Origin: Brevibacterium ravenspurgense
Lineage (GTDB): Bacteria; Actinomycetota; Actinomycetes; Actinomycetales; Brevibacteriaceae
Direction of reading: 5' to 3'
Assembly: GCF_001584615.1 (NCBI RefSeq)
Contig: NZ_LQQC01000008.1
Span: 124,001 to 188,000 of the forward strand
Length of the DNA stretch: 64,000 nt
How positions within the stretch are numbered: position 1 is the first letter of the stretch; each line of letters starts with the position of its first letter. Position numbers and translations under genes: made by a program. Of the stretch, positions 14,999 through 43,640 are shown one piece after another. The notes under the pieces were generated by a model. It was not told where the DNA came from. It made no database searches and saw nothing but the letters and a program-made list of their open reading frames with translations.

Positions 14999-15036
14999 CA
15001 GTTCGCACCTCGGCACATGTGCCGGGGTGCGAACTG
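14999..15036 (+). terminator. Long hairpin between neuB and the next glycosyltransferase
   Basis: The arms CAGTTCGCACCTCGGCA and TGCCGGGGTGCGAACTG pair along 17 positions (one mismatch) around the loop CATG. Only AATT follows, so it may attenuate rather than fully stop transcription into the next two genes. It also shows that the GT2 gene cannot plausibly start at the upstream ATG at 15027, which lies in the stem. Confidence 0.55.
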
Positions 15037-15071
15037 AATTGACCGCAGTTTGTAAACAGCGAAAGATTCTC

Positions 15072-16277
15072 ATGGCCAAGATTTCCCTTATCGTTCCGGC
15101 AAAAGACTGTGCGCACTACCTGCCGCAGGCTTACCGGTCCATCCTCATGCAGTCTGAGCCTCACCCCCTGCAGCCCAATCCCATTGATCTGACGGAACTG
15201 CAGGTCATCGCAATCGATGACGGAAGCTCAGACAACACTCCACAGGTCCTCAATGAGATCGGGGCGAAGTTCGACAACTTCGAAGTCATCACGAACCCAA
15301 CCAATGTCGGCCTGGCGAACGGCCGCAATCAGGGGCTCGACCGGGCTGAGGGCGAATACATCGTCTTTCTTGACGGAGACGACTGGCTGGCACCGAACCA
15401 CCTGGCCACCATGCTCACTGCAATGGACAGTCTGAACGTTGATTTTGTTCGCTGCGACCACACAACCGTCACCGGGAATCGACGTGGCCTCAAGCGCGCT
15501 CCGATGTCGGTTCGCGGACGCGCACTCAACCCTCGCACAGGCGTCCTTCCGGCTCACACCAGCTCCATGGTCGACTATCCCTACGCGTGGGCGGGGATCT
15601 TCCACAAGCGCCTGCGCGATTCCGGCCTTCTGTATTTTCCCAAAGACTTCATGACAGCCGAAGACCGAAGCTGGATCTGGGGTCTGCACCTGGACGCAGA
15701 ATCATTTGCCGTAGTTGATGCCCCAGGCATCATGTACCGGCGCAATGTCAGCGGTTCACTCACTCAGATCCTGGACGAACGCCAACTGATGTTCCTGGAC
15801 GCTTTTGACCTGATCTTCGACCGTCTGGAAAAGGATCCTGAAGGGCACACGTTCTTCCCCAAGGCGGCCCGCAACCTGTTCGCCCTCATGGAGCATCACC
15901 ACAAGCGCTACGTCCAAGCCGTCGCCTATGCTCAGGCAGCCGCAGAGCTCGGGATCGAAACAGGCGCTGTTGGCTCAGACGCTTCGGTGCTTGACCAGAT
16001 TAAGCGCCGCATGACTGGTCGCCGCGGGCGTTCGCAGATGTTCTTGGCAGCGGTGGAAGAACAGCGCCGCAACATTCAGAGCACCAAGAACCTGCGCGAC
16101 CTCCCGCCGGTCCAGAACATCCCTCAGGAGGTGCAGGAGGCGCTTCGGGCCGGCGGCCGCCGGGTAGCTCAACGCATTCCTCGCGACGTTTTCAGCGAAG
16201 TCTTCGCTACCAGCACCGAACTGCGGCAGGCCCATATTTCCTGGTATCTGCCGGAAGCAGAAAGGACATCAGCATGA
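15072..16277 (+). CDS. Glycosyltransferase family 2
   Basis: This 401-residue protein opens MAKISLIVPAKDCAHYLPQA, continues with VIAIDDGSSDNT and carries the acidic metal/nucleotide motif FLDGDDWLAP near residue 105, all of the GT-A fold of family 2. It has no membrane segment, so it should act in the cytoplasm on an activated sugar. The C-terminal 130 residues are helical and Arg-rich with no family I recognise. The ATG at 15072 is chosen because similarity begins there. It overlaps the next gene by four bases (ATGA), so it is translationally coupled to the polysialyltransferase-like protein, and it is likely part of the same polymer pathway. Confidence 0.88.
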   Translation: MAKISLIVPAKDCAHYLPQAYRSILMQSEPHPLQPNPIDLTELQVIAIDDGSSDNTPQVLNEIGAKFDNFEVITNPTNVGLANGRNQGLDRAEGEYIVFLDGDDWLAPNHLATMLTAMDSLNVDFVRCDHTTVTGNRRGLKRAPMSVRGRALNPRTGVLPAHTSSMVDYPYAWAGIFHKRLRDSGLLYFPKDFMTAEDRSWIWGLHLDAESFAVVDAPGIMYRRNVSGSLTQILDERQLMFLDAFDLIFDRLEKDPEGHTFFPKAARNLFALMEHHHKRYVQAVAYAQAAAELGIETGAVGSDASVLDQIKRRMTGRRGRSQMFLAAVEEQRRNIQSTKNLRDLPPVQNIPQEVQEALRAGGRRVAQRIPRDVFSEVFATSTELRQAHISWYLPEAERTSA

Positions 16278-17737
16278 AGCAGCTGTTCTTCGTTTCCACC
16301 ATGTCCCAGGTGATCACCCTGGCCGCGGGCATTGACAATGGAGCCTACGACACAGGTTGGCTGCCGCAGGTGGCGTCTTTGCCGATTGGACAGCCGTACA
16401 GCGCACTTGAGGGGATGCCCGTGCAGCAGCGTGTGCGGGAAGACTTCCCCGCCGTTGACGAGCGCGTCCTGGTCGTCTCGAACCATTCGCTTGCCCCTGA
16501 AACTGCCGCACTGCTGTGGGAACTGCCGGAAGCGCAGCCAGCGCTGAGCCGCTTTGATCGCGTGGTTGATCTCAACGCCACACTGTCGCCCATTCATCCT
16601 TCCACGTGGTCTCCAAACGCCACGGAGCTTCCCGTGTGGGACCGTCTGCTGCGTGAGCGGTGGGATTTGGGTGATGCCGAACTTGAGCTCATTGTTGAAT
16701 CTCCGCAGGTCAACCCTGCTGTGGCGATTGGCCGTGTTTTTCACACCGCTTTTCAGCGGGTTCACGCGGATGGACTCATGTCCTATGCGGCAACCCGCAA
16801 TCAGCTGCACCTGACAAATGGTCAGCGTATGACTTCGCTCCACTACCTGCCCTATGTTGAAGGCCTCGAGCCGGTTCTTTTGAGCGAGCACGGAATTGTT
16901 CCTGTTCCGTTGGGTTGGGATGCGTACCGTTCCGTGGTTCTTGAAAGCCTGGAGACAGTCCGGGCGGTTCTCGATGCTGAACTCGGCTCGCTCTCCGGAG
17001 ACTCCACTGCTCTGGTGGTGGGCCAGTACCTGGCCTCCCTCGACATCCTCACCGATGACGAAGAGGACCGGCTGCACGTCAGAATGCTGGAGGAGGCACA
17101 CCGCCGAGGTGCCTCTCACGTAGTCTTCAAACCTCACCCCGCGGCTCCACCGGCTGCGGTGAGCGCTCTGCGGGAAGCCGCTGAAAAGCTGGGCCTTGGG
17201 TTCACGGTGTTTGACCGTCCCGTCATCGCCGAAGCGATTTTGGCTTATCTGTCGCCAGCCTGCGTGATCGGCTGTTTCTCGACAACACTTGCGACAGCGC
17301 GCGCCGCCTATGGAATTCCCGCTGTTGCGGTTGGCACCCAGAAAGTGCTGAGCGCACTTACTCCCTTCGAGAACTCCAACCGCATTCCTGCAGTCATCTG
17401 TGATGCGATCATGGACGGTTCCAGCGGCGAGCTCAGCTCCACGGAAGTTGCGCGTCTGCAGGGCCTGATCGAAGCAATTGCCTACGCATCGCGCCCCAGG
17501 GTGGTTCCACACCTTCGCGTAAACGCTGAGTCGTTCCTGGAATCTGCTCAGCACAACACGGATCTGGGCTACTTCCGCAGGCGCAGGCTGACCAAGCTCA
17601 ACCTTCCGGGAGCTTTGCCGAAAAGGAAATGGTCACCGTCGGGCAAGGTTGAAAAGCGCCTTCCGACGCCTCTGCGCGCACCGTACCGCAAGCTGCGCAA
17701 GCAGGTGAAGAGCACGGTCAAGACCTTAAAGCGCTGA
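16274..17737 (+). CDS. Polysialyltransferase-like glycosyltransferase
   Basis: This 487-residue protein resembles the alpha-2,8-polysialyltransferase-type family. It opens MKQLFFVSTMSQVITLAAGI, holds the HVVFKPHPAAPP stretch whose KPHP at residues 286-289 matches the HP motif that binds the CMP donor, and has CVIGCFSTTLATARAAYGIP further on, which fits the conserved Ser/Thr region. The tail after residue 430 is very basic (KRKWSPSGKVEKRLP), suggesting membrane or polymer contact. Its position directly behind NeuB, the CMP-sugar synthetase and a coupled GT2 supports transfer of a nonulosonic acid. It converges with the membrane protein gene at 17726, overlapping it by 12 bases. Acceptor and linkage are unknown. 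Confidence 0.78.
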   Translation: MKQLFFVSTMSQVITLAAGIDNGAYDTGWLPQVASLPIGQPYSALEGMPVQQRVREDFPAVDERVLVVSNHSLAPETAALLWELPEAQPALSRFDRVVDLNATLSPIHPSTWSPNATELPVWDRLLRERWDLGDAELELIVESPQVNPAVAIGRVFHTAFQRVHADGLMSYAATRNQLHLTNGQRMTSLHYLPYVEGLEPVLLSEHGIVPVPLGWDAYRSVVLESLETVRAVLDAELGSLSGDSTALVVGQYLASLDILTDDEEDRLHVRMLEEAHRRGASHVVFKPHPAAPPAAVSALREAAEKLGLGFTVFDRPVIAEAILAYLSPACVIGCFSTTLATARAAYGIPAVAVGTQKVLSALTPFENSNRIPAVICDAIMDGSSGELSSTEVARLQGLIEAIAYASRPRVVPHLRVNAESFLESAQHNTDLGYFRRRRLTKLNLPGALPKRKWSPSGKVEKRLPTPLRAPYRKLRKQVKSTVKTLKR

Positions 17738-19186
17738 GGTGCGCCCCGTCTGCGGCCCGTCGACCTTGTCGGCGGGCCGCTCTCGTTTGCGGCCGAAGAA
17801 TCCGGTTAGGGCGATGACGAGGGCCAGGGAAACAGCAACTGCGGGCCAATGCGTATAGCGGAAGTGGGCTTCGGGAATCACCGGAAAGTACGCGACCATG
17901 TAGAGGAAAGCTGACGATGTCAGCATGAGCACAGTTGCCCGGCCCTGTCTGCACACCAGGCCCAGCGCAGCGACTAGGACGGAGGCAGCCAACCAAAACC
18001 AGGGTTTGAACGTGAACCCAAGTTTCGCAACGCCGAAGTCCAGGACATATGTCTTTGCAGCCCGCTCAAACGGCTCGGGACCTAGCCCAAACCCAGTTTC
18101 CTGCGCAATCGGCACGGGGTGCTCCAGATACTCCAGCATCGAACGCGACAGATAGTAGCGATACACCGACCACCGGTAGGAAATATAACGACCGGGGTGC
18201 GTGATGACGTTTTCGCGCCACAGTTTTTTCAGCCCGCCCCTATGAGCCACAGCGATCGGCTGGTAACTACCGCCGATTCCTTTGCCAAAGCAGTTCCAGT
18301 AGGCGTCATAGTATTCGCCTCGCTCATAGCAGCGAGCCCTCGATGTATTGATGCGGTCTTTCAGCTGCTGCGAAACATCAGCCTTGTTGAGCTCGTCTTC
18401 GGGCACCGAAAACATGACGTCATCGAGCATCACCTGGTAATGCTGGTGGGTTTCTTTGACGTGCCATGCCTTTGCTATTCCGGCATCAGCGACTACTGCA
18501 CCTCCCCCGACCACAAAAATCAGCACAAAGGCACCTGCGATCCCCTTAACGAACCGTTTCCTGCGTGAACCGGCCCCATCACCACGGCGCACCCTCAGCT
18601 TCCGCAGCGTTCCTTCAACAAGCGGCCGCAATTGCCATGCCAAGTAGAAGCAGATCGGGACCACAGCGGCAATGGCGTTTTTGCGCACCAGTGTCGCAAA
18701 GATGAGCACAACGAGTGTCAGAAGAGCAAGCACCACAGTTCGCTTTGACCGGGTACCGCGGCGGGTGAGCATTGCACAGCCGCATCCGGTCAGCAACGCA
18801 CCGGTGAGAATCGTGTCCTTCCACGGGGTGTTGATCTGGCTATATGCCCACGGGCTGATAGAGACAGCAATGACCGCCAGCGATCCCACTCTGCTGCCCA
18901 GCCGACGGTGAACGCTCCGAGCAATGAGCAGCACACCGCAGAAATACAGAATCACCGAGAACGCGAACAGCGAACCGATCCAACCGGTGGCCCCGTAAAG
19001 GCCTTTCCACACAACCGCAATGATCGGCGGGTGCCAGTCACTCATCTGCCTCTGACCGACAACCTGTCTGAACTGTTCGATGATGTCGAACTCAGCACGT
19101 CCCGTGCCGAAGCCGATGATAGTGATCCCGGTGCAGAATGCTGTCAGCACGAGCAGAAGCAGGTCCCACCGGGATCGTGCGTTCAC
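17726..19186 (-). CDS. Polytopic membrane protein, GT-C-like, paralogue 1 of 3
   Basis: This 486-residue protein has about ten hydrophobic segments. It shares with the proteins at 21455 and 23048 an early loop with a DWHPP-type motif, a KDT/KDV block in the second third (here INTPWKDTIL), an FATLVRKNAIAAV segment and an extracytoplasmic stretch YDAYWNCFGKGIGGSY. An aspartate in the first outer loop plus many membrane helices suggests a GT-C glycosyltransferase, as in lipid-linked sugar transfer, but I assign no substrate. It starts at GTG 19186, overlapping the acyltransferase stop by four bases (GTGA), and is the last gene of a minus-strand operon that begins with galE. Confidence 0.78.
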   Translation of the reverse strand: MNARSRWDLLLLVLTAFCTGITIIGFGTGRAEFDIIEQFRQVVGQRQMSDWHPPIIAVVWKGLYGATGWIGSLFAFSVILYFCGVLLIARSVHRRLGSRVGSLAVIAVSISPWAYSQINTPWKDTILTGALLTGCGCAMLTRRGTRSKRTVVLALLTLVVLIFATLVRKNAIAAVVPICFYLAWQLRPLVEGTLRKLRVRRGDGAGSRRKRFVKGIAGAFVLIFVVGGGAVVADAGIAKAWHVKETHQHYQVMLDDVMFSVPEDELNKADVSQQLKDRINTSRARCYERGEYYDAYWNCFGKGIGGSYQPIAVAHRGGLKKLWRENVITHPGRYISYRWSVYRYYLSRSMLEYLEHPVPIAQETGFGLGPEPFERAAKTYVLDFGVAKLGFTFKPWFWLAASVLVAALGLVCRQGRATVLMLTSSAFLYMVAYFPVIPEAHFRYTHWPAVAVSLALVIALTGFFGRKRERPADKVDGPQTGRTSAL

Positions 19187-21387
19187 TTCTTGTCCGTCTC
19201 AATCTTCAGGGCCTTGGCCACATAGTCGGCCAAGGTTTCTGAATAGGATGCCGAAATATGGTCCTGGTCGCGGTACACAACCACGGAACCGACCACGGCG
19301 GGGCATGTTGTGGACTGTCCGCAGAAATAGGGCGTGGGATCCCAACGGCGGATGTCGAGGTCCTCCGCAGCCTTTTTCAGTGCGAGGTCAGCACCGTCTG
19401 GTTTGGGGTCTTCGCGCTTGAAGTTGCACTCTGCCGGATCGGCTTCGTTCAGGCCCATGCAGTCGGCCATGTTGAACGGCGGAACAGGAGTGTCGCCGAA
19501 CGCTACGACGTCGATGCCAGCATCTTTCAGCGGCTTTAGCGTTTCGATGTACCCGTCGTAGCCGACAACGTCGGACTCAGCCAGGCCTTCTTCTTCTGCG
19601 GCTTCAACGTCATAGTCGTCAACGTCCAGATTGGCGATGAGCACCTTGTCAGGTTTTTCGTCCACAAGGTGTTTGACGAGCTTCTTCACCGGCTCGACGC
19701 AGTTGAGCCCTTCGTTCTTGTAATTGCGCGGGGTGGTGTTCAGCCCGCAGGCGTTTTTCGCATACACCTGCAGTTTCCAGTCTGCTCCTTCGAGTGCTTT
19801 TTCCAGTCCCGGCACCCACTGGGCCGCGTGGGAGTCCCCCACGACAGCCAGTTCCTTTGATCCCTCCGGGTTGAGCACAGTGCAACCGCGGATGGTGTCC
19901 GATTCCTTTTTATTCGGATACGGGTGGCACTTTTCGGGGAACTTCGGACGGTCCTCAATGAGGTCGACCGCTTTGGGGAAGTAGTCCTTCTGCCCTTCCG
20001 CGTGCATGGGCAGGTCAAGCGACTCCAGCGGATCGCTGATTGCCCGAGCCCCGAACAGCGGTTCACCGTCTTCAGGTTTCTGCGTGGCCTGATCGTCTGC
20101 AACAGTGTCGTACTTTTCCTGTGCTTCGGGCACCCGTTCGTATTCACGGTTGACCGCCCACTGCGGAACAAGCGCCACCACCGCGGCAACGACCATGGAC
20201 ACTGCCGCGGCTTCGACCGTCAGCCACCTGCGCTTCTTGAACATTTCGTTACGGCGCAGCGGCTCTTCGACAAAGTTGAAGCTCAGGTAGGCCAGCGCCA
20301 GTGCGAAGACCAGCAGACCCGTGCCTTCGATCGTGTTGGCGTGACGTTCGAACTGCGCGGTGAAGAACACCACCAGCGGGAAGTGCCACAGGTACAGCGA
20401 GTACGACCAGTTGCCGATCTTCTGCACGGCTTTCAGATCGACAATCGGGGTGAGCGACCCCAGGCCCTGGGTGCGGCCGGCGGCAATGACAGCCATCGTG
20501 CCCAGAACCGGCAGAAGCGCAGAGACACCCGGGAATGCAGGTGTCGTGCCGGTGTAGAAAATGCAGGCCACAAGAATTGCGGCAATACCGGTAAGCGCCA
20601 TCACCGTGCGCAGGCGCGGGAACCGCTCCGTGTCCACCATGACCACGGCCAGCAGACCACCGGCGCCGAGCTCCCAGATGCGGGACTGTGTGACGAAGTA
20701 CGCCGTGGGGTCCCCCGACCCCACCAGCACTGCCGACCACACGAACGACACCAGGATGATGATGGCAAAGAGCACGCCGACAACCACCCGAAACGTCCTG
20801 TGGAACTGCTGTTCGGGCGACACGTGGTGAGCACCCCCAGTGCCGATCTTGCGCAGGGCACCGGGGACGGCGCCTCGGGAGTGGCGGGCGACAGCCCGGC
20901 CCGCAATCCATACGGCAAGAATCACCGCCAGCGGCCACATGATGTAGAACTGCTCTTCGATTGAGAGCGACCAGAAGTGCTGGAACGGTGACGGCGAATT
21001 CTGCGCGCCCAGATAGTCAACAGAGTTGATGGCCAGCGCCCAGTTCTGCACGTAGAACGCCGAAGACAGTCCTTCGATTGCCGCTTGGGACAGTGAGCTG
21101 CGCGGCAGGAAGTACAGGGATGCCAGGGCGGTGATCACAATGGCGACGGTCGCGGCCGGAAGGATGCGCCGGGCACGGTTGGCCCAGAACGTCAGCAGGT
21201 TGACCGTTTGGGTGCGTTCGGCTTCGCGCAGCATGTGCGCCGTGATGAGGAACCCGGAGATGACGAAGAAGACGTCAACGCCCACGAATCCGCCCGGCAG
21301 GAAATCCGGGTTGATGTGGTAGACGACCACGGTGACGACGGCCAGTGCGCGCAGCATCTGGATTTCCGGTCGAAACCTACGGTGCAT
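19183..21387 (-). CDS. OatA/OafA-type membrane O-acyltransferase with SGNH domain
   Basis: This 734-residue protein begins RFRPEIQMLRALAVVTVVVY and continues with HINPDFLPGGFVGVDVFFVI, the signature of acyltransferase-3 proteins. About ten membrane helices cover residues 8-400. The outer SGNH esterase/transferase domain follows, with VVGDSHAAQWVPGLEKAL (block I) and DQDHISASYSETLADYV (block V) intact. Such enzymes O-acetylate wall polysaccharide, teichoic acid or peptidoglycan. The ATG at 21387 has an AGGAG site. It sits between two members of the paralogous GT-C-like family, so the acylated target is probably the glycan those proteins build. Confidence 0.92.
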   Translation of the reverse strand: MHRRFRPEIQMLRALAVVTVVVYHINPDFLPGGFVGVDVFFVISGFLITAHMLREAERTQTVNLLTFWANRARRILPAATVAIVITALASLYFLPRSSLSQAAIEGLSSAFYVQNWALAINSVDYLGAQNSPSPFQHFWSLSIEEQFYIMWPLAVILAVWIAGRAVARHSRGAVPGALRKIGTGGAHHVSPEQQFHRTFRVVVGVLFAIIILVSFVWSAVLVGSGDPTAYFVTQSRIWELGAGGLLAVVMVDTERFPRLRTVMALTGIAAILVACIFYTGTTPAFPGVSALLPVLGTMAVIAAGRTQGLGSLTPIVDLKAVQKIGNWSYSLYLWHFPLVVFFTAQFERHANTIEGTGLLVFALALAYLSFNFVEEPLRRNEMFKKRRWLTVEAAAVSMVVAAVVALVPQWAVNREYERVPEAQEKYDTVADDQATQKPEDGEPLFGARAISDPLESLDLPMHAEGQKDYFPKAVDLIEDRPKFPEKCHPYPNKKESDTIRGCTVLNPEGSKELAVVGDSHAAQWVPGLEKALEGADWKLQVYAKNACGLNTTPRNYKNEGLNCVEPVKKLVKHLVDEKPDKVLIANLDVDDYDVEAAEEEGLAESDVVGYDGYIETLKPLKDAGIDVVAFGDTPVPPFNMADCMGLNEADPAECNFKREDPKPDGADLALKKAAEDLDIRRWDPTPYFCGQSTTCPAVVGSVVVYRDQDHISASYSETLADYVAKALKIETDKK

Positions 21388-21454
21388 GGGCTCCTCGTTC
21401 GTTTGGCGGCCTGTGGGCGGTCAATTGGCTGTCTGTGTGATTCGCACTCTAAGA

Positions 21455-22978
21455 CTAATAAGAGTCGGCGGCGGAATCGTGCGCGACTGGCTGGATGTCC
21501 TTTTCAGTGCGGCTCTGTTTGGCGACGCGGTTCTTCTTTTCGGCGCGGAGCCTGCGGGTGTGTCTGCGGGATGCGGCGATCAGCAGCCAGCCGAACATCG
21601 CTCCGGCAAACGGCCAGTAGCTGTAGCGGTATAGGTCGGCCGGTGCGGTGGGGAAATAGGTCAGGACGTACAGAATGATCGAGGTGAAAACGGCGAACGC
21701 ACCCAGGGACCGGGTGCGGTGGCGCAGGCTGACGACGACACCGGCAATGCTGGCGGTGAACGCCGTTATTCCTAAGAACATGAACGGCATGTAGCCGTAG
21801 GCTGCCGCGTAGACGTAGCCCGAGTGGATGTCCCTGGCTTTCGGGTGGGTGGGCGGCAGGTCCACCTGGTCTCCCCGGACGGCCGAGGATGCCACGGACG
21901 AGGTGCTGGTCAGGAACCGCCACGTTGTTTTAGCTCGGTATTCGGCGTAGTCACCCAGGTGGTGTGGAACAGTTGCCTTCCACAGGGCGACCACCGCGTC
22001 GGGGTCCTCAACTTCTGTGTACGCTCCGTTGACGCCCAGGCCGTAACAGTTCCAGTAGGCGTCCCAGATGATTTCGCGGCCTTCTTGTTCTTCGCGCTTT
22101 TTGCACGTTTCGCGGGCGAACATGATGCGGTCTTTTTCTGCCTGCGGAGCATCCGCGCTGCGGATCGCTTCTTCGGGCATGCCGAAGACGATGTCGTCGA
22201 TGAACACCTGGGTGAACTGCGAGTTCTGCGTGGCGCCGGTGGCGGCGGCGAGTGCTTTGTCTGCTGCGAGCACAGTTCCGCCGACAACGCCGGTGGCGAT
22301 GATCGAAATGACGCCGACTTTGGCCAGTTCGCCGCGGACGCGGCTGCCGCGGGCCCGCAGGAACCACAGAACGAACACCGCAACAATGGGCAGCACTGCA
22401 ACGGCGGAGTTTTTGCGCACGAGTGCCGCGTACACCAAGCTGCCGAACGCCAGCGCGGCCCACACCCAGCGGCCCTTTGGCTGGAGCAGCACCAGGAACA
22501 TCATGAGAACAGCTAAGTACAGGGCGAGCGCCAGCTGCACGTCCTTGTAGAACACACCCAGGATGTTGACCATGTTCGGCATGAACAGCATGAACAGGCC
22601 CAGGGCTGCAACCCAGGTGCGCCGTGAGATCTTCAGCAGCACGTAGCTGGTGAGCAGTGCGCACACCCAGCCGAAGAACACCTGTGCCCACAGCAGTGCC
22701 GTGACGGTGCCGAAGACGTTGGTCAGCTGGTGCCACGTCCAGGTCATCGAGACCGGCTGCCAGTCGTTGTACGGGACTTCGCCGCGAATCTGCCGAACCT
22801 GGAAAACCCCGTCGGGGCTGATGCCGCCGGGGTACATGGCAAAGATGATGAGGCCGGCAAGCACCGTGCCGATGACTGCGAGCACGCCCATGACCCGGCG
22901 GTGCTCCGCGCTCAGAGGAGCACGTTCAGACACGGCGGGCAAAGGGGCAGCGTGGGGTTCGGCAGCGGTTTTGGGCAC
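21455..22978 (-). CDS. Polytopic membrane protein, GT-C-like, paralogue 2 of 3
   Basis: This 507-residue protein is a close relative of the one at 23048 and a more distant relative of the one at 17726. Shared blocks are YNDWQPVSMTWTWHQL near residue 90, VFYKDVQLALALYLAVL, ALVRKNSAVAVLPI, and the outer-domain stretch IIWDAYWNCYGLGVNGAYTE followed by DYAEYRAKTTWRFL. Around ten membrane helices are predicted by eye. The start is GTG at 22978, directly behind a TACAGT -10 box six bases away, so it may have its own leaderless transcript within the operon. A lipid-linked sugar transferase is the best guess; the substrate is unknown. Confidence 0.8.
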   Translation of the reverse strand: MPKTAAEPHAAPLPAVSERAPLSAEHRRVMGVLAVIGTVLAGLIIFAMYPGGISPDGVFQVRQIRGEVPYNDWQPVSMTWTWHQLTNVFGTVTALLWAQVFFGWVCALLTSYVLLKISRRTWVAALGLFMLFMPNMVNILGVFYKDVQLALALYLAVLMMFLVLLQPKGRWVWAALAFGSLVYAALVRKNSAVAVLPIVAVFVLWFLRARGSRVRGELAKVGVISIIATGVVGGTVLAADKALAAATGATQNSQFTQVFIDDIVFGMPEEAIRSADAPQAEKDRIMFARETCKKREEQEGREIIWDAYWNCYGLGVNGAYTEVEDPDAVVALWKATVPHHLGDYAEYRAKTTWRFLTSTSSVASSAVRGDQVDLPPTHPKARDIHSGYVYAAAYGYMPFMFLGITAFTASIAGVVVSLRHRTRSLGAFAVFTSIILYVLTYFPTAPADLYRYSYWPFAGAMFGWLLIAASRRHTRRLRAEKKNRVAKQSRTEKDIQPVAHDSAADSY

Positions 22979-22984
22979 AGGAGA

Positions 22985-22990
22985 ACTGTA
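22985..22990 (-). promoter_or_regulatory. -10 box of a possible internal leaderless promoter
   Basis: TACAGT on the minus strand ends six bases before the GTG at 22978. The intervening TCTCCT offers no ribosome-binding site. Confidence 0.45.
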
Positions 22991-23047
22991 CGGGCTGATC
23001 CTCCAAAACCAGTGAACTCCCGGGCGTCTGCCCGTGTGAGAGCTGTC

Positions 23048-24484
23048 TCATCGCACCCGGCGTCGTCCCTGGCCTTCGGCCCACAGAACGAGCCAGCCGA
23101 GTATTGCGGCCAGCCACGGCCAGAAAACGTACCGGTAGTCATTAGCTGGTGCGGTGGGCACGTAGGTCATGAGGTACAGAACGGCAGAACTGAAGATGGC
23201 CAGCGCGCCGAGCGAACGGCGTTTCTTCTTCGCACCCACAGCGATTCCGGCGGCTGACATTCCCAGTGCCGTTGCGCCCAAGTAGAGCCACGGGAAAGTG
23301 GCAACGCCGAAGTCGACAACGTAGATGCGCAGGGATGAGCGAAGTGCTTGCGACTGTGCGGGGTAGTCGAAGTTGCGGTCGCGAACGAACTCGAGTTTCG
23401 AGGTGAAGAGGAATTTCGTGGTGGTCTGCGCCCGGTATGCGACGTAGCTGTCCAAGTGCTTTGGCACCGTCTGCTTCCAAATGCTGGTGACGGCTTCCGG
23501 GTCTTCGATTTCTGTGTAGGCGCCTTCCGCTCCCTTGCCGTAGCAGGCCCAGTATCCGTCCCAGATGATCTCCGGCCTGCCGTCTTCATGGCGCACGCGA
23601 TTCTTATTGCTGCACGTGGCTTTTGCCTGGGCCAGCCGCGTCTTCTCCGCCGCGGGGGCATCTGCGCCGTCAATGGCCGCCTGCGGCACGGCAAAGATGA
23701 GGTCGTCAAGCAGCACCTGCGTGTACTGCGAGTTCTCGGTCGGCTTAAGCACCGCTTTCAAGCCTGTGTCGACACCCATGAGCACCGCGCCGAAGCCGAC
23801 AACGGCCGCGACCGCGGCAATCAGTTTGCGCCGCTTGGACAGCGTGCGCTTTTCTCCCTCGGGCTTCTTGCTCTTCATACGCACCAGCAGCCACACCGCC
23901 ATGACCGCAATGATCGGCAGGACGGCAACCGCGGAATTCTTCCGCACCAGCCCGGCGTAGACCAAGGCTCCGAAAGCCAGCACCGCGAATACCCAGCGAA
24001 GCCTCGGCACCACCGGTATAAGCAGCATGAGGATGACCGCGAAGTACAGTGCCAGGCCCAAGTGGGTATCTTTCCACACGACTCCGACGAGGTTGACGGT
24101 GTTGGGCAGAAAAAGGATGAACAGACCGGCCAGGGCGCTCCACCCGCGCCGCGAAACTTTCAGCAGGTAGTAGGAGGTCAGCACAGCACAGACCCAGGCA
24201 GCAGATACCTGCAGGACGAGCATCGAGTTGATGGTCCCAGTGAGGTCAATGAGCCACTGCCACGTCCAGGTCATGGCTATGGGGTGCCAGTCGTTGAGGG
24301 GAAGAACCCGCCTAGCCTGCTCCAGCTGAAAAACGGTGTCCTTGGTGAAACCGCCGGGGGCCATCGCGGCATACAGCAGCCAGGCCAGCAGTGCGCCGAT
24401 GACCGCAGATGCGGCCAGGATCAGACGATGTCGCCGGTTGAGGGGCGCCTCAGCGGCGGGGTTACCAGTGCGCGCAGAGGTCAC
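23048..24484 (-). CDS. Polytopic membrane protein, GT-C-like, paralogue 3 of 3
   Basis: This 478-residue protein matches paralogue 2 closely: PLNDWHPIAMTWTWQW, NLVGVVWKDTHLGLALYFAV, GLVRKNSAVAVLPIIAVMAV, then the outer stretch IIWDGYWACYGKGAEGAYTE and YVAYRAQTTTKFL. Four short motifs of the outer loops are thus conserved in all three copies. I place the start at the GTG at 24484 because it overlaps the galE stop by four bases (GTGA); the frame is open up to 24544 but that extension is antisense-free galE sequence and not hydrophobic. It follows galE in the operon, which may supply UDP-galactose-type sugars for the pathway. Confidence 0.78.
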   Translation of the reverse strand: MTSARTGNPAAEAPLNRRHRLILAASAVIGALLAWLLYAAMAPGGFTKDTVFQLEQARRVLPLNDWHPIAMTWTWQWLIDLTGTINSMLVLQVSAAWVCAVLTSYYLLKVSRRGWSALAGLFILFLPNTVNLVGVVWKDTHLGLALYFAVILMLLIPVVPRLRWVFAVLAFGALVYAGLVRKNSAVAVLPIIAVMAVWLLVRMKSKKPEGEKRTLSKRRKLIAAVAAVVGFGAVLMGVDTGLKAVLKPTENSQYTQVLLDDLIFAVPQAAIDGADAPAAEKTRLAQAKATCSNKNRVRHEDGRPEIIWDGYWACYGKGAEGAYTEIEDPEAVTSIWKQTVPKHLDSYVAYRAQTTTKFLFTSKLEFVRDRNFDYPAQSQALRSSLRIYVVDFGVATFPWLYLGATALGMSAAGIAVGAKKKRRSLGALAIFSSAVLYLMTYVPTAPANDYRYVFWPWLAAILGWLVLWAEGQGRRRVR

Positions 24485-25443
24485 CGAGCGCGGCTTTCGA
24501 CCGCACTGCGCGCTATGTCGTCGAGGGTGAACTGCGCTTTCCATGCCAGGTCGGCGTTGATGGCGGCGGGGTCAGCAATGAGCTGTGGCGGATCGCCGGC
24601 ACGACGGTCGGCCATGATGGGCTCGAGGTCTTCTCCGAGTGCCTTGCCAACGGCATCGATGACTTCAAGGACAGAAGCGCCCGTTCCTGTGCCCACGTTG
24701 AACGATGTTCCGCGGATATTGCCGCCCTTGAGGTAATCGAGTGCGGAAATATGGGCTTCCGCAAGGTCGGCCACGTGAATGTAGTCGCGGATGCACGTGC
24801 CGTCGGGGGTGCTGTAGTCGTCACCGAAGACCACCGGTTGCTGTCCCTGAGCGAAACGATTGAGCACGATCGGGATGAGGTTCATGACCGCGGTGTCGGC
24901 AAGGTCGGGCCATCCGGCGCCGGCAACGTTGAAGTAGCGCAGCTTCACAGCGGACAGGCGGCCGGCGGCCATTTGGGCGTCAATGAGCCATTCGCCGATC
25001 AGCTTGGTGTAGCCGTAGGGGTTGATGGGATGACAGTCGGTTGTTTCTCGCACCATGTCGACATCGGGCATGCCGTAGACGGCGGCCGATGACGAAAAAA
25101 CGAGCGTTTCAATGTGGGCGTCTTCCATGGCCTGCAGCAGGTTGGTGAGTCCTCCCACGTTCTGCTGGTAGTACCACAGTGGGCGCTCAACGGATTCGCC
25201 CACTTGCTTCTTCGCAGCAAAGTGGATGACGGAGTCAACGCTGTACTCTGCGAACACTCCGCGCAGCACGTCGGGCGCCTGCGAGGATGCAAGGTCAACT
25301 TCGACAATTGGGAGCCCTTCGACACGCGAGCGCACACCGTTGGACATGTCGTCGACGATGACCACGTCATCGCCGCGCTGCTGCAGCAGGCGTACTACGT
25401 GCGAACCGATGTAGCCGGCACCGCCGGTCACCATCACTGCCAT
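24481..25443 (-). CDS. galE: UDP-glucose 4-epimerase
   Basis: This 320-residue extended short-chain dehydrogenase interconverts UDP-glucose and UDP-galactose. The NAD-binding glycine motif is VTGGAGYIGSH at residues 5-15, the catalytic pair appears as SSAAVYG and YGYTK (Tyr-x-x-x-Lys), and the substrate region reads RYFNVAGAG. The ATG at 25443 follows GGAAGG. It is the first gene of a five-gene minus-strand operon (galE, two GT-C-like proteins, an acyltransferase, a third GT-C-like protein), so it probably serves synthesis of a galactose-type surface glycan. Confidence 0.96.
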   Translation of the reverse strand: MAVMVTGGAGYIGSHVVRLLQQRGDDVVIVDDMSNGVRSRVEGLPIVEVDLASSQAPDVLRGVFAEYSVDSVIHFAAKKQVGESVERPLWYYQQNVGGLTNLLQAMEDAHIETLVFSSSAAVYGMPDVDMVRETTDCHPINPYGYTKLIGEWLIDAQMAAGRLSAVKLRYFNVAGAGWPDLADTAVMNLIPIVLNRFAQGQQPVVFGDDYSTPDGTCIRDYIHVADLAEAHISALDYLKGGNIRGTSFNVGTGTGASVLEVIDAVGKALGEDLEPIMADRRAGDPPQLIADPAAINADLAWKAQFTLDDIARSAVESRAR

Positions 25444-25551: not shown

Positions 25552-27843
25552 GTGGCAGGAACGTACATTCTGGCTGAATCACCTCTGCAGCTGTTGTCAG
25601 GGCTGGAAGCTCTGCACGCTGTTCAGCACAGAAATGACGTGGTGGTCTGCATACGCGAAGACAGCCCCTCGCTGGCGGCGTTCGCAGGCAACCTGCCGGC
25701 GGGACTGCTGCCGGATGACTGTCTGCTGCATTCGGGTTTCCCCTCCCCCGCGCAGGCTGCACAGGCTGATCATCTGCTTCTGGGTGACCCCCTGTCGGGC
25801 AGGATCCAGCGGCTGTTGGCCGAATGCGCGGTCCGCCCGGGTGGCCTGCCGCACATTACGGTTCTCGACGACGGCTTTGCCACGGTCCGCGCTATTCGCC
25901 TGATCTTGAGCCCCACCCGTCAGGCGCTCGTCCGCGCCCGCGTCAAACCGACTGTCCGCCGCACTGCCCTCGGCCATGCCGCCGCCGCGGTGCTGCGCGG
26001 TGCGCTCAAGTTGGGCCGGCTTTCGTGGTTCAGCGCGCTGACACCGGATGAATCTTTGCCGCAGCGCTTCACGGCAGCCGGTGGGACACTCATCCGCCAT
26101 TCCTTTGCGCAGGTGCGCACGTGTTTGGAAGCCACCGCCCCTGACGCTCCCACCGACCGTGCGGTTATTGTGGGCACGGCCCTTGCCGCCGATGGGCTGA
26201 TCAATCAGCAGGCTCTCATCGACTGGACCGCCGAGATCGGCGCACAGCAGCCCGCCCTGTTCTTTGCTCACCGCCGCCAGACGGCCGACGAACTCGCTGT
26301 TCTCGACTCCTTGCCTGGCATCACGGTGGTGGAATCGGGCACACCGCTCGAATTGCGCTTGGCACCGTTCCCTGCGCACACCCCGGTGTATTCGCTGCCG
26401 TCAACGGCTGTCCAGACTCTGCCGCTGGTCATGGACTCCCCCGAAATCCACATCACGGAGATCCCGCGTGCCTGGTGGGAAACGTCTGCCCCGGACTCCC
26501 TGCGCCGAGAACTCAACGCACAGTCTGCTCTCTCACCCGGTCGGATGCTCGATTCTCAGGGTACGAGGCGCCACCGGCTTGTCGCTGTCTGCGACAGCGA
26601 GTCGTATCTCAAGTGGGCGGCCGCGATGCTCGACGGCTTCGATGACAGTTTTGAGACGGACCTGTGGATTGTCGAATCCCCCATTCAGCCCACCGGTGAG
26701 CAGATTGCCAACGCGGTGGCCGGAACTTCGAGGGCGGAAGCCGAAGTTCCCGTGATTCCAGTGTCGCGTTTGGAGGGTGAGCTGTCGGCTGTCAGCCCTG
26801 ACGTGGTGCTGGCAGCGGCTACTGGCCCTGTCGTCCAGACGGTGTATTCCACTGCTGCTCGCCTGCCACGCCGGCCCGGTTTGGTGTCGGGCCTTCCCGG
26901 CGTGGGTCTTCCGGCGACCGTCAAGGGACAGCGCTACCGCCGTCGCGGGGATGCTTTCATCGCCCATTCTGAACACGAGCGCCGCCTGTACCGCGAGGTC
27001 AACCGGCGTTTGGGTCTGCCGGTCGATGTGTGGGTGGGGCGCCTGCCCATGTTGAAGTCCGTGGGCGCTCCGCAGCCGCAGTTTGCTGACGGCACTCCGC
27101 CGAACCGTATTGTGTTTGCCCCGCAGGCGAAGGTTCCCGAAGAGCGCAGTCAGCGCCGCATGGTTCTGCTGGAGCTTGCGCGTGCCGGTAAGCAGCTCGG
27201 TGTTCCTGTCATCATCAAGGTCCGCAGCCGTCCCGGTGAACACGAAACCCACCACGAACAGCACACCTACATTGAGATCCTGTCGGAGCTCATTGCCGAA
27301 GGCGCTGTTGGGCCGGATGACCTGCAGGTTGAGGTTGGGCCGATGGCGGATTTCCTCACAGACGGAGCCGCACTTGTCACGGTGTCATCAACCGCGGCAC
27401 TGGAGTCCTTGGACAGGGGTCTGCGGACTTTCATCATCGGCGACTTCGGCGTCAGCCGGGACATGCTCAACGAGGTTTTCGCCGGTTCGAATCTCATCGG
27501 CAGCTTTGACGATCTTGCCGCAGGTAGGTTCCGTCACCCCGACCCGGCATGGCTTGAGGAGAACTACTTCCAGAAGCCCAGTGAGGAACTCACCCAGCAG
27601 CTGGCCTGCTTGGCTCGCCGGTCGGAGAACTACGAACTCGATGGCCGGAAGACCCGCGATTCGATTCAGTCGTGGCCGACTCTGCGTGCGGAGCTGCGAG
27701 CGCACGCTCCCAAGCAGGTGGTCAGCGTGTACCGGTTAGGCCGCAGTCTCGTCGACAACCTCACGGGTGTCGCGAAAAACCCAGGTGCGGTAGGCGTAGA
27801 AGCGGAACGCCATAGCCAGGGCGATGCCGACGATGTTCGTTGA
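25552..27843 (+). CDS. Two-domain putative glycosyltransferase: sialyltransferase-like N-terminus plus DUF6716-type C-terminus
   Basis: This 763-residue protein seems to be a fusion. Residues 1-335 open TYILAESPLQLLSGLEAL, which resembles the start of polysialyltransferase/capsule sialyltransferase-type proteins, but I see no secure catalytic motif. Residues 341-740 open HRLVAVCDSESYLKWAAAML, the hallmark of the DUF6716 group of putative glycosyltransferases found in actinobacterial wall-glycan loci, and include a FAPQAKVPEERSQRR block and VTVSSTAALESLDRG. The GTG at 25552 has an AGGAGG site. The last 36 codons lie antisense to the conserved end of gtrA (108-base overlap), so the tail is probably not functional. 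It is divergent from galE. The function is inferred from context; substrate unknown. Confidence 0.75.
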   Translation: MAGTYILAESPLQLLSGLEALHAVQHRNDVVVCIREDSPSLAAFAGNLPAGLLPDDCLLHSGFPSPAQAAQADHLLLGDPLSGRIQRLLAECAVRPGGLPHITVLDDGFATVRAIRLILSPTRQALVRARVKPTVRRTALGHAAAAVLRGALKLGRLSWFSALTPDESLPQRFTAAGGTLIRHSFAQVRTCLEATAPDAPTDRAVIVGTALAADGLINQQALIDWTAEIGAQQPALFFAHRRQTADELAVLDSLPGITVVESGTPLELRLAPFPAHTPVYSLPSTAVQTLPLVMDSPEIHITEIPRAWWETSAPDSLRRELNAQSALSPGRMLDSQGTRRHRLVAVCDSESYLKWAAAMLDGFDDSFETDLWIVESPIQPTGEQIANAVAGTSRAEAEVPVIPVSRLEGELSAVSPDVVLAAATGPVVQTVYSTAARLPRRPGLVSGLPGVGLPATVKGQRYRRRGDAFIAHSEHERRLYREVNRRLGLPVDVWVGRLPMLKSVGAPQPQFADGTPPNRIVFAPQAKVPEERSQRRMVLLELARAGKQLGVPVIIKVRSRPGEHETHHEQHTYIEILSELIAEGAVGPDDLQVEVGPMADFLTDGAALVTVSSTAALESLDRGLRTFIIGDFGVSRDMLNEVFAGSNLIGSFDDLAAGRFRHPDPAWLEENYFQKPSEELTQQLACLARRSENYELDGRKTRDSIQSWPTLRAELRAHAPKQVVSVYRLGRSLVDNLTGVAKNPGAVGVEAERHSQGDADDVR

Positions 27844-28203
27844 GATGTTGTAGGCGATGGGCCCGTGCAGGCCCAGCACGTACCAGGTGAAGGCCAGCGG
27901 CAGCACGGTGATGATCATGCCGGCTCCATTGACCAGGACGAACAGCACAAAGCCGCGCAGGTTCGAACCTGTTTCTCTGTCACCGTAGGTCCACAGTTTG
28001 TTGCCCATCCAGGCCACAATGACCGACGCGATGGTCGAAATGACCTTCGCTTTGATGGGGCCGTCGTGCAGCAGTGCGGGCACCGCCCACAGGCCGTACA
28101 CCAAGAGGTTGGAGAGCCCAACATCGACGATGTAGCTGACACCGCCGACGGTCAGGAACTGCAGCGCCTCTTTTATCAGCGAGCTGCGCCGACCGTCACT
28201 CAT
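27736..28203 (-). CDS. GtrA-family membrane protein
   Basis: This 155-residue protein has four hydrophobic segments and the GtrA ending RFYAYRTWVFRDTREV. Family members are thought to help move polyprenyl-phosphate-linked sugars across the membrane, working with a GtrB-type glycosyltransferase, which is encoded directly upstream. The start is taken at the ATG at 28203, giving an eight-base overlap with the GT2 stop; the open frame continues upstream inside that gene but without GtrA similarity. Its end overlaps the convergent DUF6716-type gene by 108 bases, and the conserved GtrA ending shows that this is the frame under selection there. Confidence 0.9.
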   Translation of the reverse strand: MSDGRRSSLIKEALQFLTVGGVSYIVDVGLSNLLVYGLWAVPALLHDGPIKAKVISTIASVIVAWMGNKLWTYGDRETGSNLRGFVLFVLVNGAGMIITVLPLAFTWYVLGLHGPIAYNISTNIVGIALAMAFRFYAYRTWVFRDTREVVDETAA

Positions 28204-29155
28204 TTCCAGGTGCCGGCAGTGCCAGGTAGTGCAGGCGTGAGGTTTCGCGGCGAGCGCGACGCACGCCGTCCATGATGATTCCCACGGAGCCCATGAGGAA
28301 CGCAAGGATCATGCAGCCGGCTGACAGCAGCGCAGTGGGCAGGCGGGGTACGTAGCCGGTTTGGAAGAACTCCCACACCACGGGGATTCCCAGGAGCAGC
28401 GAAATGAGTGCGAACAGCGCTGTCAGTCCGCCGTAGAACAGGCGCGGCCTTTCGTGGGCTGTCAGCTGGGTGATGAGCCACAGGATCCTGAAGCCGTCTT
28501 TGAAGGTGGACAGCTTCGAGAAGCTGCCTTCGGGACGGTCGCGGAAGCCCACGGGGTATTCCGTGTTGGGCAGTCGCAGCGACATGGTGTGCACCGTCAG
28601 TTCGGTTTCGATTTCAAAGTGGCGGCTGACCGCGGGGAAGGATTTGACGAATCTGCGTGAGAACACGCGGAATCCGGACAGCATGTCGGTGACGTTGTCG
28701 CGGAACATCCAGCTGGTCAGCACGTTGAATGCACGGTTGCCGCGTTCGTGCCCCGGTCGGTAGGCCGTTGAGTCAGCGGGAGTGCGCACGCCGAGCACGT
28801 GGTCGTAGTTGCCGTCGATCATGGTCTGCACCATGCCGGGGGCGTCGGCGGCTTCGTAGGTGTCGTCACCGTCGATGATCAGGTAGATGTCCGCGTCGAC
28901 GTCCGCGAAAGCCCGCCGGATGACATTGCCCTTGCCGGGACGGTTTTCAAAGCGCACGATTGCGCCCGCTTCCCGTGCGACTTCGGCTGTGTTGTCGGAG
29001 CAGTTGTTGGCGTAGACGTAGATGTCAGCTCCGGGCAGGGCGGCACGCAGGTCAGAGATGACTTTGCCGACGGTCAGCTCTTCGTTGTGGCACGGGACGA
29101 TGGCGGCAATGCGGCGCGAGCCGAAGGGGGTGTTCTCTTGCACTCTCAGCTTCAC
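28196..29155 (-). CDS. Polyprenyl-phosphate glycosyltransferase, GT2 (GtrB/DPM1-like)
   Basis: This 319-residue protein has a GT-A domain of the dolichol-phosphate-mannose synthase type: IAAIVPCHNEELTVGKVISD, YVYANNCSDNT, then the metal-binding IIDGDDTYEAAD and the membrane-proximal RDRPEGSFSK block. Two hydrophobic segments follow (about residues 228-250 and 265-290). It would load a sugar on undecaprenyl phosphate for a GT-C-type transferase, with GtrA as flipping partner. The start is uncertain: GTG at 29155 lies near a TACAGT -10 box, an ATG at 29209 and a GTG at 29143 are alternatives, and none has a clear ribosome-binding site. Confidence 0.88.
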   Translation of the reverse strand: MKLRVQENTPFGSRRIAAIVPCHNEELTVGKVISDLRAALPGADIYVYANNCSDNTAEVAREAGAIVRFENRPGKGNVIRRAFADVDADIYLIIDGDDTYEAADAPGMVQTMIDGNYDHVLGVRTPADSTAYRPGHERGNRAFNVLTSWMFRDNVTDMLSGFRVFSRRFVKSFPAVSRHFEIETELTVHTMSLRLPNTEYPVGFRDRPEGSFSKLSTFKDGFRILWLITQLTAHERPRLFYGGLTALFALISLLLGIPVVWEFFQTGYVPRLPTALLSAGCMILAFLMGSVGIIMDGVRRARRETSRLHYLALPAPGNE

Positions 29156-29224
29156 AGGTTCGACGGGACTGTATGCACTGCAATGGTAGCCGCCCACTGT
29201 GAGGAGCATTGCCGAAAAACGGAT

Positions 29225-31330
29225 TTATTCGGCAGGTGTGATCAACGGGACGATCTCCCGGGTGATGTAGGCACCGAGTGTTTTCGAGTACTCGACCGTG
29301 ATGTGGTTGGAGTCGCGGTAGACGGCGCGCGATCCGATGACCGCCGGACAGGTGCTCTCGGTGCAGAACGCATCGAGGGTGTCGGCATAGTCAACCCCGT
29401 CGCCTGCGGCCTCTGCGGCAGCCCGCAGCGGCTTATTGGATTTCTCTTCTGCCGGGCCGGGCCTTGGGAAGTCACACGTGCTGGTGTCGTCACCTGCGGC
29501 AGCCACGCAGTCGGCCATGTTCTCCCCGTCTGGGACTTCGGGAGAATCGCCGAGTGCGATGATCTTCGCACCATTCAGCTTGTCTGTCAGCTGCTTGAAC
29601 ACCGCGTCGTAGCCGCGCTGCGCAGCTGACTGGCCGCCAGCGAAGTCGTCGTAGCGGCGGTTGGTGATGAAGACCGCATCGGGCTTCTGCTGCTCAATGC
29701 TGCCCAGCATGTCAGGCACGGCCCGGGAGCACACGAAGCCCTGACGCTGCTGTTCAAAGGAGCGCGGCTCCGGGTTGAGCGGGCAGTTTTCGCGTGCGAT
29801 GACGACAATCTTCCAGCTGTCGCGGCTCAGCGCTTCTTCGAATGCTGGCACCCACTGCACAGCGTGGGAATCCCCTGCCACGACGAGGGTTTTGGTTCCG
29901 TTCTTGTCCCCGGTGACACACGGCCGGGTATCTGACGAGGTGCCAAGGGCGGGCACATCTCCGCACCCTGCGAATGTGGGATAGTTTTCGCCGATCGAAC
30001 CCAGTCCCGGTTTGAGCGGCTGGTTTTGGTAGCGCGGTTCGTACATGGTGGTCCGCAGGGATCGGAAGCCGGGCCCGAATTCCCCAGCCGTGTTGAGTTC
30101 TGGTGGGGCAAATACTTGAGCTTCAGCGGCGGCGACCTTCGCCTCGTCCATTTTGACCAGCGTGTGCGGCACGGTGCCGATACCGACTGCGGCGGTGACA
30201 GCGATGAGCGCCCCGGCCAGTGTCAGCGGGGATGAGCGGCGCATGGTCGGTGAGTGCAGGATCGGCTTTTCGAACAGGTAGAAGCTGAATCCGGCAATGA
30301 GGATGGAGGCCAGCACGATGATGACGGCTTCGAGCACGGTGGCTTTGCGGCCGGCGAGCGCTTCGAAGAACACGATGATCGGGAAGTGCCACAGGTACAT
30401 GGAGTACGACCAGTCGCCGATTCTCTGTACGGGCCAGAGCTCGAAGATCCGCTGTGGGGATCCCCACCCGGTGGTGTGGCCGGCGGTGATGACGGCGGCG
30501 GTTGCAACGACCGGGACGAGTGCGGTCAGACCGGGGAACGGAATGTCGCCGGAGTACACGAAGGCACAGACGATGATGGTGAGGGTGCCGATCAGTGCCA
30601 GCCATTTGCGGGTGCGGGGAAAGCGCACGGGGTCGCCCAGGTAGACCGCCAGAAGACCACCGACTCCCAGTTCCCACACGCGTGACAGCGTGTAGAAGTA
30701 GGCGCTGGTGGGGTTGTGAGCAGTGATGTAGACGCTGTAGGCGAATGATCCTCCGACCACTGCGAAGAACAGCACGGTGGCGATCACCTTGACGCGGCGG
30801 CGGTGGCGGATGTCGTCGGTGGGGCTGGCCCAGCGGATGCGCTGGGCTATGTGCCATGCGGCGACCACCAGCATGGGCCAGAAGATGTAGAACTGCTCTT
30901 CGATCGACAGCGACCAGAAGTGCTGGAAGGGCGTCGGGGCGCTGTCGGCTGCTAGATAGTCGACGGATTGTTGGGCCAGTGCGTAGTTCTGCACGTAGAA
31001 GCCGGAAGCGACAGCCTGCAGGCTCAGGGTGGCAAACTGTGAGCGCGGCAGTATGAAAAGCGACGCGATGGTCACCGTGATGATGGTCAGTGTGGCCGCC
31101 GGCAGGATTCGGCGTGCTCGGTTAGCCCAGAAGTCGGCGGCGGAGATTCTGCCGTGTTCGGCTACGCGGCGCAGCAGGCCCGCGGTGATGAGGTAGCCGG
31201 AGATGACGAAGAAGACGTCCACGCCGATGAATCCGCCCGGCAGCCAGTCGGGGTTGATGTGGTAGACGACGACGGCGAGCACTGCGATTGTGCGCAGGGC
31301 CTGAATTTCACCGCGATACTTCCTCACCAT
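29225..31330 (-). CDS. OatA/OafA-type membrane O-acyltransferase with SGNH domain
   Basis: This 701-residue protein is a close paralogue of the one at 19183: KYRGEIQALRTIAVLAVVVY and HINPDWLPGGFIGVDVFFVI at the start, FQHFWSLSIEEQFYIFWPML, about ten membrane helices to residue 380, then an outer SGNH domain with VVAGDSHAVQWVPAFEEAL and DSNHITVEYSKTLGAYI. It should O-acylate a surface glycan. The ATG at 31330 lies seven bases behind a TAAGAT -10 box, which points to a leaderless mRNA. The GT2 and gtrA genes follow on the same strand 69 bases later and may be cotranscribed. Confidence 0.92.
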   Translation of the reverse strand: MVRKYRGEIQALRTIAVLAVVVYHINPDWLPGGFIGVDVFFVISGYLITAGLLRRVAEHGRISAADFWANRARRILPAATLTIITVTIASLFILPRSQFATLSLQAVASGFYVQNYALAQQSVDYLAADSAPTPFQHFWSLSIEEQFYIFWPMLVVAAWHIAQRIRWASPTDDIRHRRRVKVIATVLFFAVVGGSFAYSVYITAHNPTSAYFYTLSRVWELGVGGLLAVYLGDPVRFPRTRKWLALIGTLTIIVCAFVYSGDIPFPGLTALVPVVATAAVITAGHTTGWGSPQRIFELWPVQRIGDWSYSMYLWHFPIIVFFEALAGRKATVLEAVIIVLASILIAGFSFYLFEKPILHSPTMRRSSPLTLAGALIAVTAAVGIGTVPHTLVKMDEAKVAAAEAQVFAPPELNTAGEFGPGFRSLRTTMYEPRYQNQPLKPGLGSIGENYPTFAGCGDVPALGTSSDTRPCVTGDKNGTKTLVVAGDSHAVQWVPAFEEALSRDSWKIVVIARENCPLNPEPRSFEQQRQGFVCSRAVPDMLGSIEQQKPDAVFITNRRYDDFAGGQSAAQRGYDAVFKQLTDKLNGAKIIALGDSPEVPDGENMADCVAAAGDDTSTCDFPRPGPAEEKSNKPLRAAAEAAGDGVDYADTLDAFCTESTCPAVIGSRAVYRDSNHITVEYSKTLGAYITREIVPLITPAE

Positions 31331-38713: not shown

Positions 38714-38909
38714 TGAACCCTTCTGTCCATTGAATATTCACGCTGTGTTCAATCGAATTGACCCTTTATCCTATCCCGTCGCCCTCTCCCAGAACCGGCT
38801 CCCAGCTTGGCGAGTTGTAGTTTCTGCGACCTGGATAAAGAACGCACAGCCGCCAGTCTTCCTCGCGGCCATTACAATGTCTTCGACTTGTTGTATCCCA
38901 GGAGGGCTC
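38714..38909. promoter_or_regulatory. Divergent intergenic region between TagF-like and TagB-like genes
   Basis: This stretch of about 196 bases must hold promoters for both genes. I cannot define clear -35/-10 pairs. The right-hand gene has a strong AGGAGG site at its end. Confidence 0.4.
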
Positions 38910-43632: not shown

Positions 43633-43640
43633 AGATGGCT

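Follow-up and report, generated by a model that had tools for sequence, protein, structure and literature searches.

A stretch of 64,000 nucleotides from Brevibacterium ravenspurgense (NCBI RefSeq assembly GCF_001584615.1, contig NZ_LQQC01000008.1, positions 124,001 to 188,000 of the forward strand; hereafter the window, numbered from its first letter) carries an operon encoding three related membrane proteins, P1, P2, and P3, whose probable role is to attach, outside the cell, a lipid-carried sugar to a surface polymer. The operon lies on the minus strand in the order galE, P3, P2, AT3-SGNH acyltransferase, P1. At its head is galE, a UDP-glucose 4-epimerase gene (24481..25443; TIGR01179 above cut-off), followed by P3 (23048..24544; 498 amino acids from the ATG, or 478 if the GTG at 24484 is the start), P2 (21455..22978; 507 amino acids), the acyltransferase (19183..21387; SucT-like, below the equivalog cut-off), and P1 (17726..19186; 486 amino acids). 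Taking the GTG at 24484 as the P3 start gives an overlap with the galE stop as GTGA; the acyltransferase stop likewise overlaps the P1 start as GTGA, and the remaining intergenic gaps are 69 bases (P3 to P2) and 67 bases (P2 to the acyltransferase). By BLASTP, P2 and P3 are 48% identical over 469 columns (E 7e-150), whereas P1 is 29% identical to P3 (E 7e-48) and 28% to P2 (E 4e-31). Judged by these identities, the three are genuine paralogues, with P1 diverged from the other two. An initial annotation of this DNA had described three paralogous membrane proteins in a single operon, P2 and P3 close and P1 diverged, with galE at the head and an acyltransferase inside, and this description holds. 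The source genome (2.3 Mb in 14 contigs) contains exactly three family matches at E <= 0.1. The same operon is found in Brevibacterium sp. HMSC07C04 (locus L011), the nearest named relative (74%).

The four motif blocks that the initial annotation assigned to outer loops were located by script in all three proteins (positions are given for P1, P2, and P3 in turn, P3 being numbered from its ATG). DW(H/Q)P lies at 50, 72, and 85; KD(T/V) at 123, 145, and 158, with a second copy at 68 in P3; LVRKN at 166, 186, and 199; and YW(N/A)C(Y/F)GxGxxG(A/S)Y at 296, 308, and 331. Among 100,000 shuffles of P2 the long YW(N/A)C motif appeared in none, DW(H/Q)P in 155, and LVRKN in 18. Additional motifs common to the three proteins are D-xxx-Q-xx-Q ahead of DWHP, YxxYR, and RYxxWP.

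Conservation was assessed in 46 homologues, 32 from Actinobacteria and 14 from Proteobacteria, Bacteroidetes, and one cyanobacterium. In P1 numbering, D124, R168, R338, R443, and Y444 are present in all 46, K123 and N170 in 45 of 46, and D34, Q38, W51, and W60 in 45 of the 45 rows having the region. The YWNC stretch is actinobacterial, C299 occurring in 32/32 actinobacterial rows and 0/14 others. None of P1, P2, and P3 looks dead by sequence, because each retains every one of the conserved residues. The aspartate of the first outer loop is D34 in P1, D56 in P2, and D69 in P3; the model helices place it on the outer side, and it may be catalytic. Conservation falls on the columns D34xxxQ and D50W51, with no strict DxD; a DxD or modified DxD in an outer loop is the GT-C criterion given in the available part of PMC8035078. 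With ten helices assigned to the model and the N-terminus placed inside, the inner loops, which are short, would be rich in Arg and Lys and the conserved residues would lie on the outer side. The script used eleven helices, counting 371-388, which would place the last motif inside; we interpret 371-388 as a surface helix.

Models of P1 and P2 were built with AlphaFold on the 46-row alignment. The P1 model has a predicted local distance difference test score (pLDDT) of 90.1 and a predicted template modelling score (pTM) of 0.91; the values for P2 are 87.8 and 0.88. The best Foldseek match for P1 is ArnT (E 4e-4). With VIA-align, all 50 rows listed for P1 are GT-C-fold chains by title (Z 10.3-18.4), headed by Pmt4 (root-mean-square deviation 5.3 over 333) and comprising Pmt, ArnT, ALG, GPI mannosyltransferase, PglB/AglB/OST, Emb, Aft, and DPY19 chains as well as the U chain of GPI transamidase, which we take to be a GT-C-like non-enzyme. 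For P2, rows 1-45 of the 50 listed are GT-C (Z 8.9-18.2), and rows 46-50 (Z <= 5.6) are FtsW, a designed toroid, AmtB, WaaL, and a TOM70 complex. A GT-C fold is supported by the models of P1 and P2. The GT-C-like character claimed initially, for which superposition of predicted structures on ArnT, PMT, or AglB had been suggested as a check, is therefore borne out for these two proteins, whose models match ArnT, PMT, ALG, OST, and Emb/Aft structures. The modeled fold is shared with ArnT and PMT over most of the chain; unlike the fold, the sequences show only 8-13% identity in the VIA-align rows and no detected sequence-level relation.

In Pfam and NCBIfam, P1, P2, and P3 give weak partial matches, all short of the curated cut-offs. 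P1 scores 21.2 bits against PMT_2 (cut-off 26.1) and 26.4 bits against Wzy_C (cut-off 31.7), and the 200-bit cut-off of NCBIfam NF047440 (LA_3751/LA_3752) is approached neither by P2 (21.5) nor by P3 (8.7). Over the 46 homologues, the best E values are 6.5e-6 in Pfam (Wzy_C, from P1 itself) and 2.7e-6 in NCBIfam (the putative hexose transferase model LA_3751/LA_3752, matched in 3/46); a second NCBIfam putative hexose transferase, WsfD (best E 5e-4), and Pfam GtrII (E 0.006) are each matched in 1/46. A viral source for the family was rejected, no match at E <= 0.001 being present in BFVD. This is a GT-C sequence family without a name, in a known kind of system.

That kind of system, multi-component transmembrane glycosylation, combines a GT-A sugar-lipid synthase, a GtrA- or Wzx-type flippase, and a GT-C enzyme (PMC8035078, in the part available). 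Candidates for the first two components lie upstream of the operon, also on the minus strand. GtrB (28196..29209), an AglJ-like family-2 glycosyltransferase and predicted polyprenyl-phosphate sugar synthase, matches PF00535 above cut-off, and a GtrA-type flippase candidate (27736..28305) matches PF04138 at E 5.4e-20. Two hydrophobic stretches are seen by eye near the C-terminus of the GtrB translation, and a crude script finds two hydrophobic segments in each of the homologues at loci L118, L119, and L121.

The association of the family with GtrB extends across the genus. In a set of 57 Brevibacterium genomes, searched at E <= 1e-10 for the family and at E <= 1e-40 for GtrB, the family is present in 43 and GtrB in 40, all of them family-positive; 14 genomes have neither (Fisher p 9e-11, uncorrected for relatedness). 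Because a home-made gene caller misses or mis-starts some genes, distances were taken from tblastn and genome searches. By this measure, 37 of the 41 GtrB genes lie less than 1 kb from a family gene and all 41 within 8.3 kb, and all 41 are less than 3.3 kb from a GtrA; the commonest gene order is GtrB, GT-C, GtrA. A GtrA is present in 42 of the 43 family-positive genomes; in G051, the remaining one, the end of a contig truncates a GtrA piece. G051, whose assembly is 87% complete and whose family gene lies near a contig end, is also one of three genomes with the family and without GtrB. In the other two, G016 and G017, the GT-C matches begin at residues 140 and 141 in open reading frames of 407 amino acids. 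At these loci (L115 and L116) GtrB is absent, a GT-C remnant from about residue 140 is present, and GtrA is kept, which looks like a single deletion hitting both partners.

Beyond the genus, the GT-C of Streptomyces (L030) and that of Terrabacter (L031) are adjacent to a GtrB (59% and 57%, respectively) and a GtrA-like stretch (32-33%), and a 49% GtrB adjoins the family gene at two alphaproteobacterial loci (L042 and L043). In the wider phylum, at least 6 of 396 genomes, the source genome included, match the family at E <= 1e-10; this count is a lower bound, with four candidates scored per genome where listed.

More than one family copy is found in 8 of the 43 family-positive genomes (G000, G007, G010, G011, G032, G034, G039, and G042; fragments of one gene were merged by hand). 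Seven of the eight have a single GtrB. The source genome, with its three copies, has one AglJ-like GtrB at E <= 1e-40. The eighth, G007 (C4, C1), is the sole genome of the 57 with two GtrB genes, each accompanied by a separate GtrA and close to a GT-C, the two GT-Cs belonging to different clades. In a quick tree, in which long branches meet (clade III with a G032 copy; the outgroups), gain cannot be told from loss, and the starred clades alone are used. Clade I (16 rows; Shimodaira-Hasegawa-like approximate likelihood ratio test, SH-aLRT, 98) holds P1 and includes the copy beside GtrB in most species; clade II (9 rows, SH-aLRT 99) holds P2 and P3; and clade III (5 rows, SH-aLRT 100) holds extra copies of L020, L028, and G010. 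A further GT-C copy of G010 (L080:9921-11430) is split into two overlapping frames and is apparently broken. P2/P3 and the a/b copies of L020/L028 represent two separate duplications, both in genomes with one GtrB. One shared donor sugar with three acceptors is likelier than several sugars, because the source genome has one such GtrB and the separate duplications sit in one-GtrB genomes. The initial suggestion that several lipid-linked sugars are added to one glycan is not supported by these counts.

The locus appears to fit the known multi-component kind of glycosylation, with a GT-C family of its own. P1, P2, and P3 are best read as GT-C glycosyltransferases, the third component of a GtrA/GtrB/GT-C system in which one GtrB hexose is delivered to three acceptor positions of a wall polymer, with acylation by AT3-SGNH enzymes; we assign this reading a probability of roughly 0.7. 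GtrB would load one hexose onto polyprenyl phosphate at the cytoplasmic side, and the GtrA-type protein would carry the polyprenyl-phosphate hexose across the membrane. Outside, P1, P2, and P3 would each transfer the same sugar to a different acceptor position of an acidic or teichoic-type wall polymer whose genes lie nearby; acylation of the glycosylated product would fall to the AT3-SGNH enzymes. A membrane protein family without a name, common in Brevibacterium, thereby gains a testable job, the extracytoplasmic glycosylation of a wall polymer, and three transferases behind one donor synthase offer a direct way to ask how GT-C enzymes choose acceptor positions.

Several observations weigh against this reading. 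The nearest model for GtrB is AglJ, at 188 bits below a cut-off of 325. In this operon and in L011, the paralogues lie 3.7-9 kb from GtrB, with GtrA, DUF6716, and galE intervening. GtrB is a neighbor at only 2 of 11 non-actinobacterial loci tested (L042 and L043): none scoring above 150 bits was found at L034, L035, L037-L039, L041, or L044-L046, and L036 and L040 were left out as too short. P1-P3 have no sequence relatives among solved structures, the sole row (E 0.58 and 2.3) being an unrelated protein, and no profile similarity of the family to the PMT encoded in the window was detected. Other family-2 glycosyltransferases of the source genome, L100 and L102 (unclassified), might make other lipid-linked sugars. 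Of the 14 family-negative genomes, 13 retain a GtrA next to genes flanking this locus (PckG, ABC-transporter, or DUF6716); a strict GtrA-GtrB-GT-C trio was rejected on this ground, and GtrA probably serves something else as well. Finally, in a genome without the family (L126), galE sits between DUF6716 and the polysialyltransferase-like gene. Since the same place is occupied there without any GT-C, galE is not safe proof of a galactose donor, and the tie between galE and the GT-C set implied by the initial annotation is not borne out.

A swapped GtrB/GT-C cassette had been expected in the family-negative genomes; none was seen in their neighborhoods. Five of them (L124, L128, L130, L132, and L133, among L123-L135) have a protein with nine transmembrane segments beside GtrA, which in the two tested, L124 and L130, is an AT3 acyltransferase.

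Of the other explanations, an assembly line, with a separate lipid-linked sugar for each paralogue and a single side chain built by the three in turn, is the least improbable, though we consider it unlikely. Three paralogues with all conserved residues in a single operon would suit it, as would the two GtrB genes of G007, each less than 1 kb from a GT-C, and the presence in the source genome of the unclassified L102 and of L100, which looks DPMS-like from its size and sequence. The single AglJ-like GtrB of the source genome, the single GtrB of most multi-copy genomes, and the two duplications in one-GtrB genomes all argue for a shared donor instead. Slightly less probable still is that some or all paralogues, alongside the PMT at 10970, mannosylate a protein or lipoglycan with polyprenyl-phosphate mannose made by the DPMS-like enzyme. 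The nearby PMT gene, the DPMS-like enzyme itself, and the PMTs among the top structural matches point that way, but the family co-occurs with and adjoins the AglJ-like GtrB, and homology to PMT by profile was rejected, none being detected although the folds match. A Wzy/WaaL-type polymerase or ligase is very improbable, and this identity was rejected for P1, since its sub-threshold Wzy_C match is shared at E <= 0.01 by no other of the 46 members and WaaL scores Z 3.9 for P2, as against at least 8.9 for GT-C, and Foldseek E 0.84 for P1.

Support for the initially proposed surface-glycan role comes from the setting of the operon. On the plus strand beside the operon lie genes for the PMT (10970-12592), a cytidylyltransferase-KdsC-type phosphatase fusion (12761-14029), a NeuB-like synthase (14060-14971; below the equivalog cut-off), a GT2 (15027-16277), and a PF07388 polysialyltransferase-like protein (16274-17737). 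The 12761-14971 genes are of nonulosonic-acid type, and because the phosphatase half of the fusion has sub-threshold similarity to the models for KdsC and KDN-9-phosphate phosphatase, Kdn is a candidate. The NeuB-like synthase is found in 53 of the 57 genomes, 43/43 family-positive and 10/14 family-negative, and is by the latter count independent of the GT-C. A second AT3-SGNH acyltransferase is encoded at 29225..31330 on the minus strand. Farther on, genes on both strands between 35081 and 45482 are of teichoic-acid type: a fusion of GT2 with Glyphos_transf, a CDP-glycerol glycerophosphotransferase domain (35081-38713, minus), a second protein with that domain (38667-40187, plus), a GT2 (41328-42296, minus), a CDP-alcohol phosphatidyltransferase (42209-43045, minus), a glycerol-3-phosphate cytidylyltransferase (43086-43529, minus), and a GT1 (43635-45482, plus).

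A wall polymer of the teichulosonic or teichoic sort is the most probable acceptor, the choice between them being our inference. The available portion of PMC6801904 reports a Kdn-teichulosonic acid from Promicromonospora and, from Brevibacterium iodinum, a mannitol teichoic acid bearing glucose (Glc) together with a minor glycerol teichoic acid; the portion of PMC6113628 available contains nothing on polymers of Brevibacterium. More tentatively, at somewhat less than an even chance, one polyprenyl-phosphate sugar from one GtrB would be fanned out by three specialized transferases over three positions of a wall polymer of nonulosonic-acid type (Kdn/sialic-like), separate transferase duplications in different species giving rise to species-specific surface decoration.

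Similar architectures are described in the accessible parts of two papers. Like GtlA/GtcA/GtlB, CsbB/GtcA/YfhO, and CsdAB/CflA (PMC8035078), the present locus combines a predicted GT-A-type polyprenyl-phosphate sugar synthase, a GtrA-type protein, and a multi-spanning GT-C, in genetic linkage next to genes for wall polymers. That source pairs Listeria 4b GttA with two GT-Cs, the flippase being a prediction, and so provides a precedent for a single donor synthase serving several GT-Cs. In contrast to those Gram-positive systems, this locus is actinobacterial, its three GT-C proteins fall below all Pfam and NCBIfam cut-offs, up to three GT-C paralogues accompany one GtrB, GtrA persists without the pair, and nonulosonic-acid and polysialyltransferase-like genes lie alongside. 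In Streptococcus mutans, two synthase/GT-C pairs, SccN/SccP and SccM/SccQ, act on one polymer (PMC11754754), and there, as proposed here, several GT-Cs modify distinct sites on a single wall polysaccharide; the donor in S. mutans is undecaprenyl-phosphate glucose (Und-P-Glc). The S. mutans GT-Cs are served by two donor synthases (for beta and alpha Glc-P-Und), unlike the one AglJ-like GtrB for three here. Literature searches naming the genus, as far as the records were accessible, found no genetic study of such a glycosylation system in Brevibacterium.

Two further reading frames were noted. The DUF6716 putative glycosyltransferase gene (25552..27843, plus strand), divergent from galE, encodes 763 amino acids, of which the domain spans residues 343-686; Pfam yields no match for the N-terminal half of the protein. 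In many relatives DUF6716 is matched by two neighboring genes instead of one, a probable fusion or split. On the minus strand, 45648-50126 is a 1492-amino-acid reading frame whose start is signal-peptide-like.

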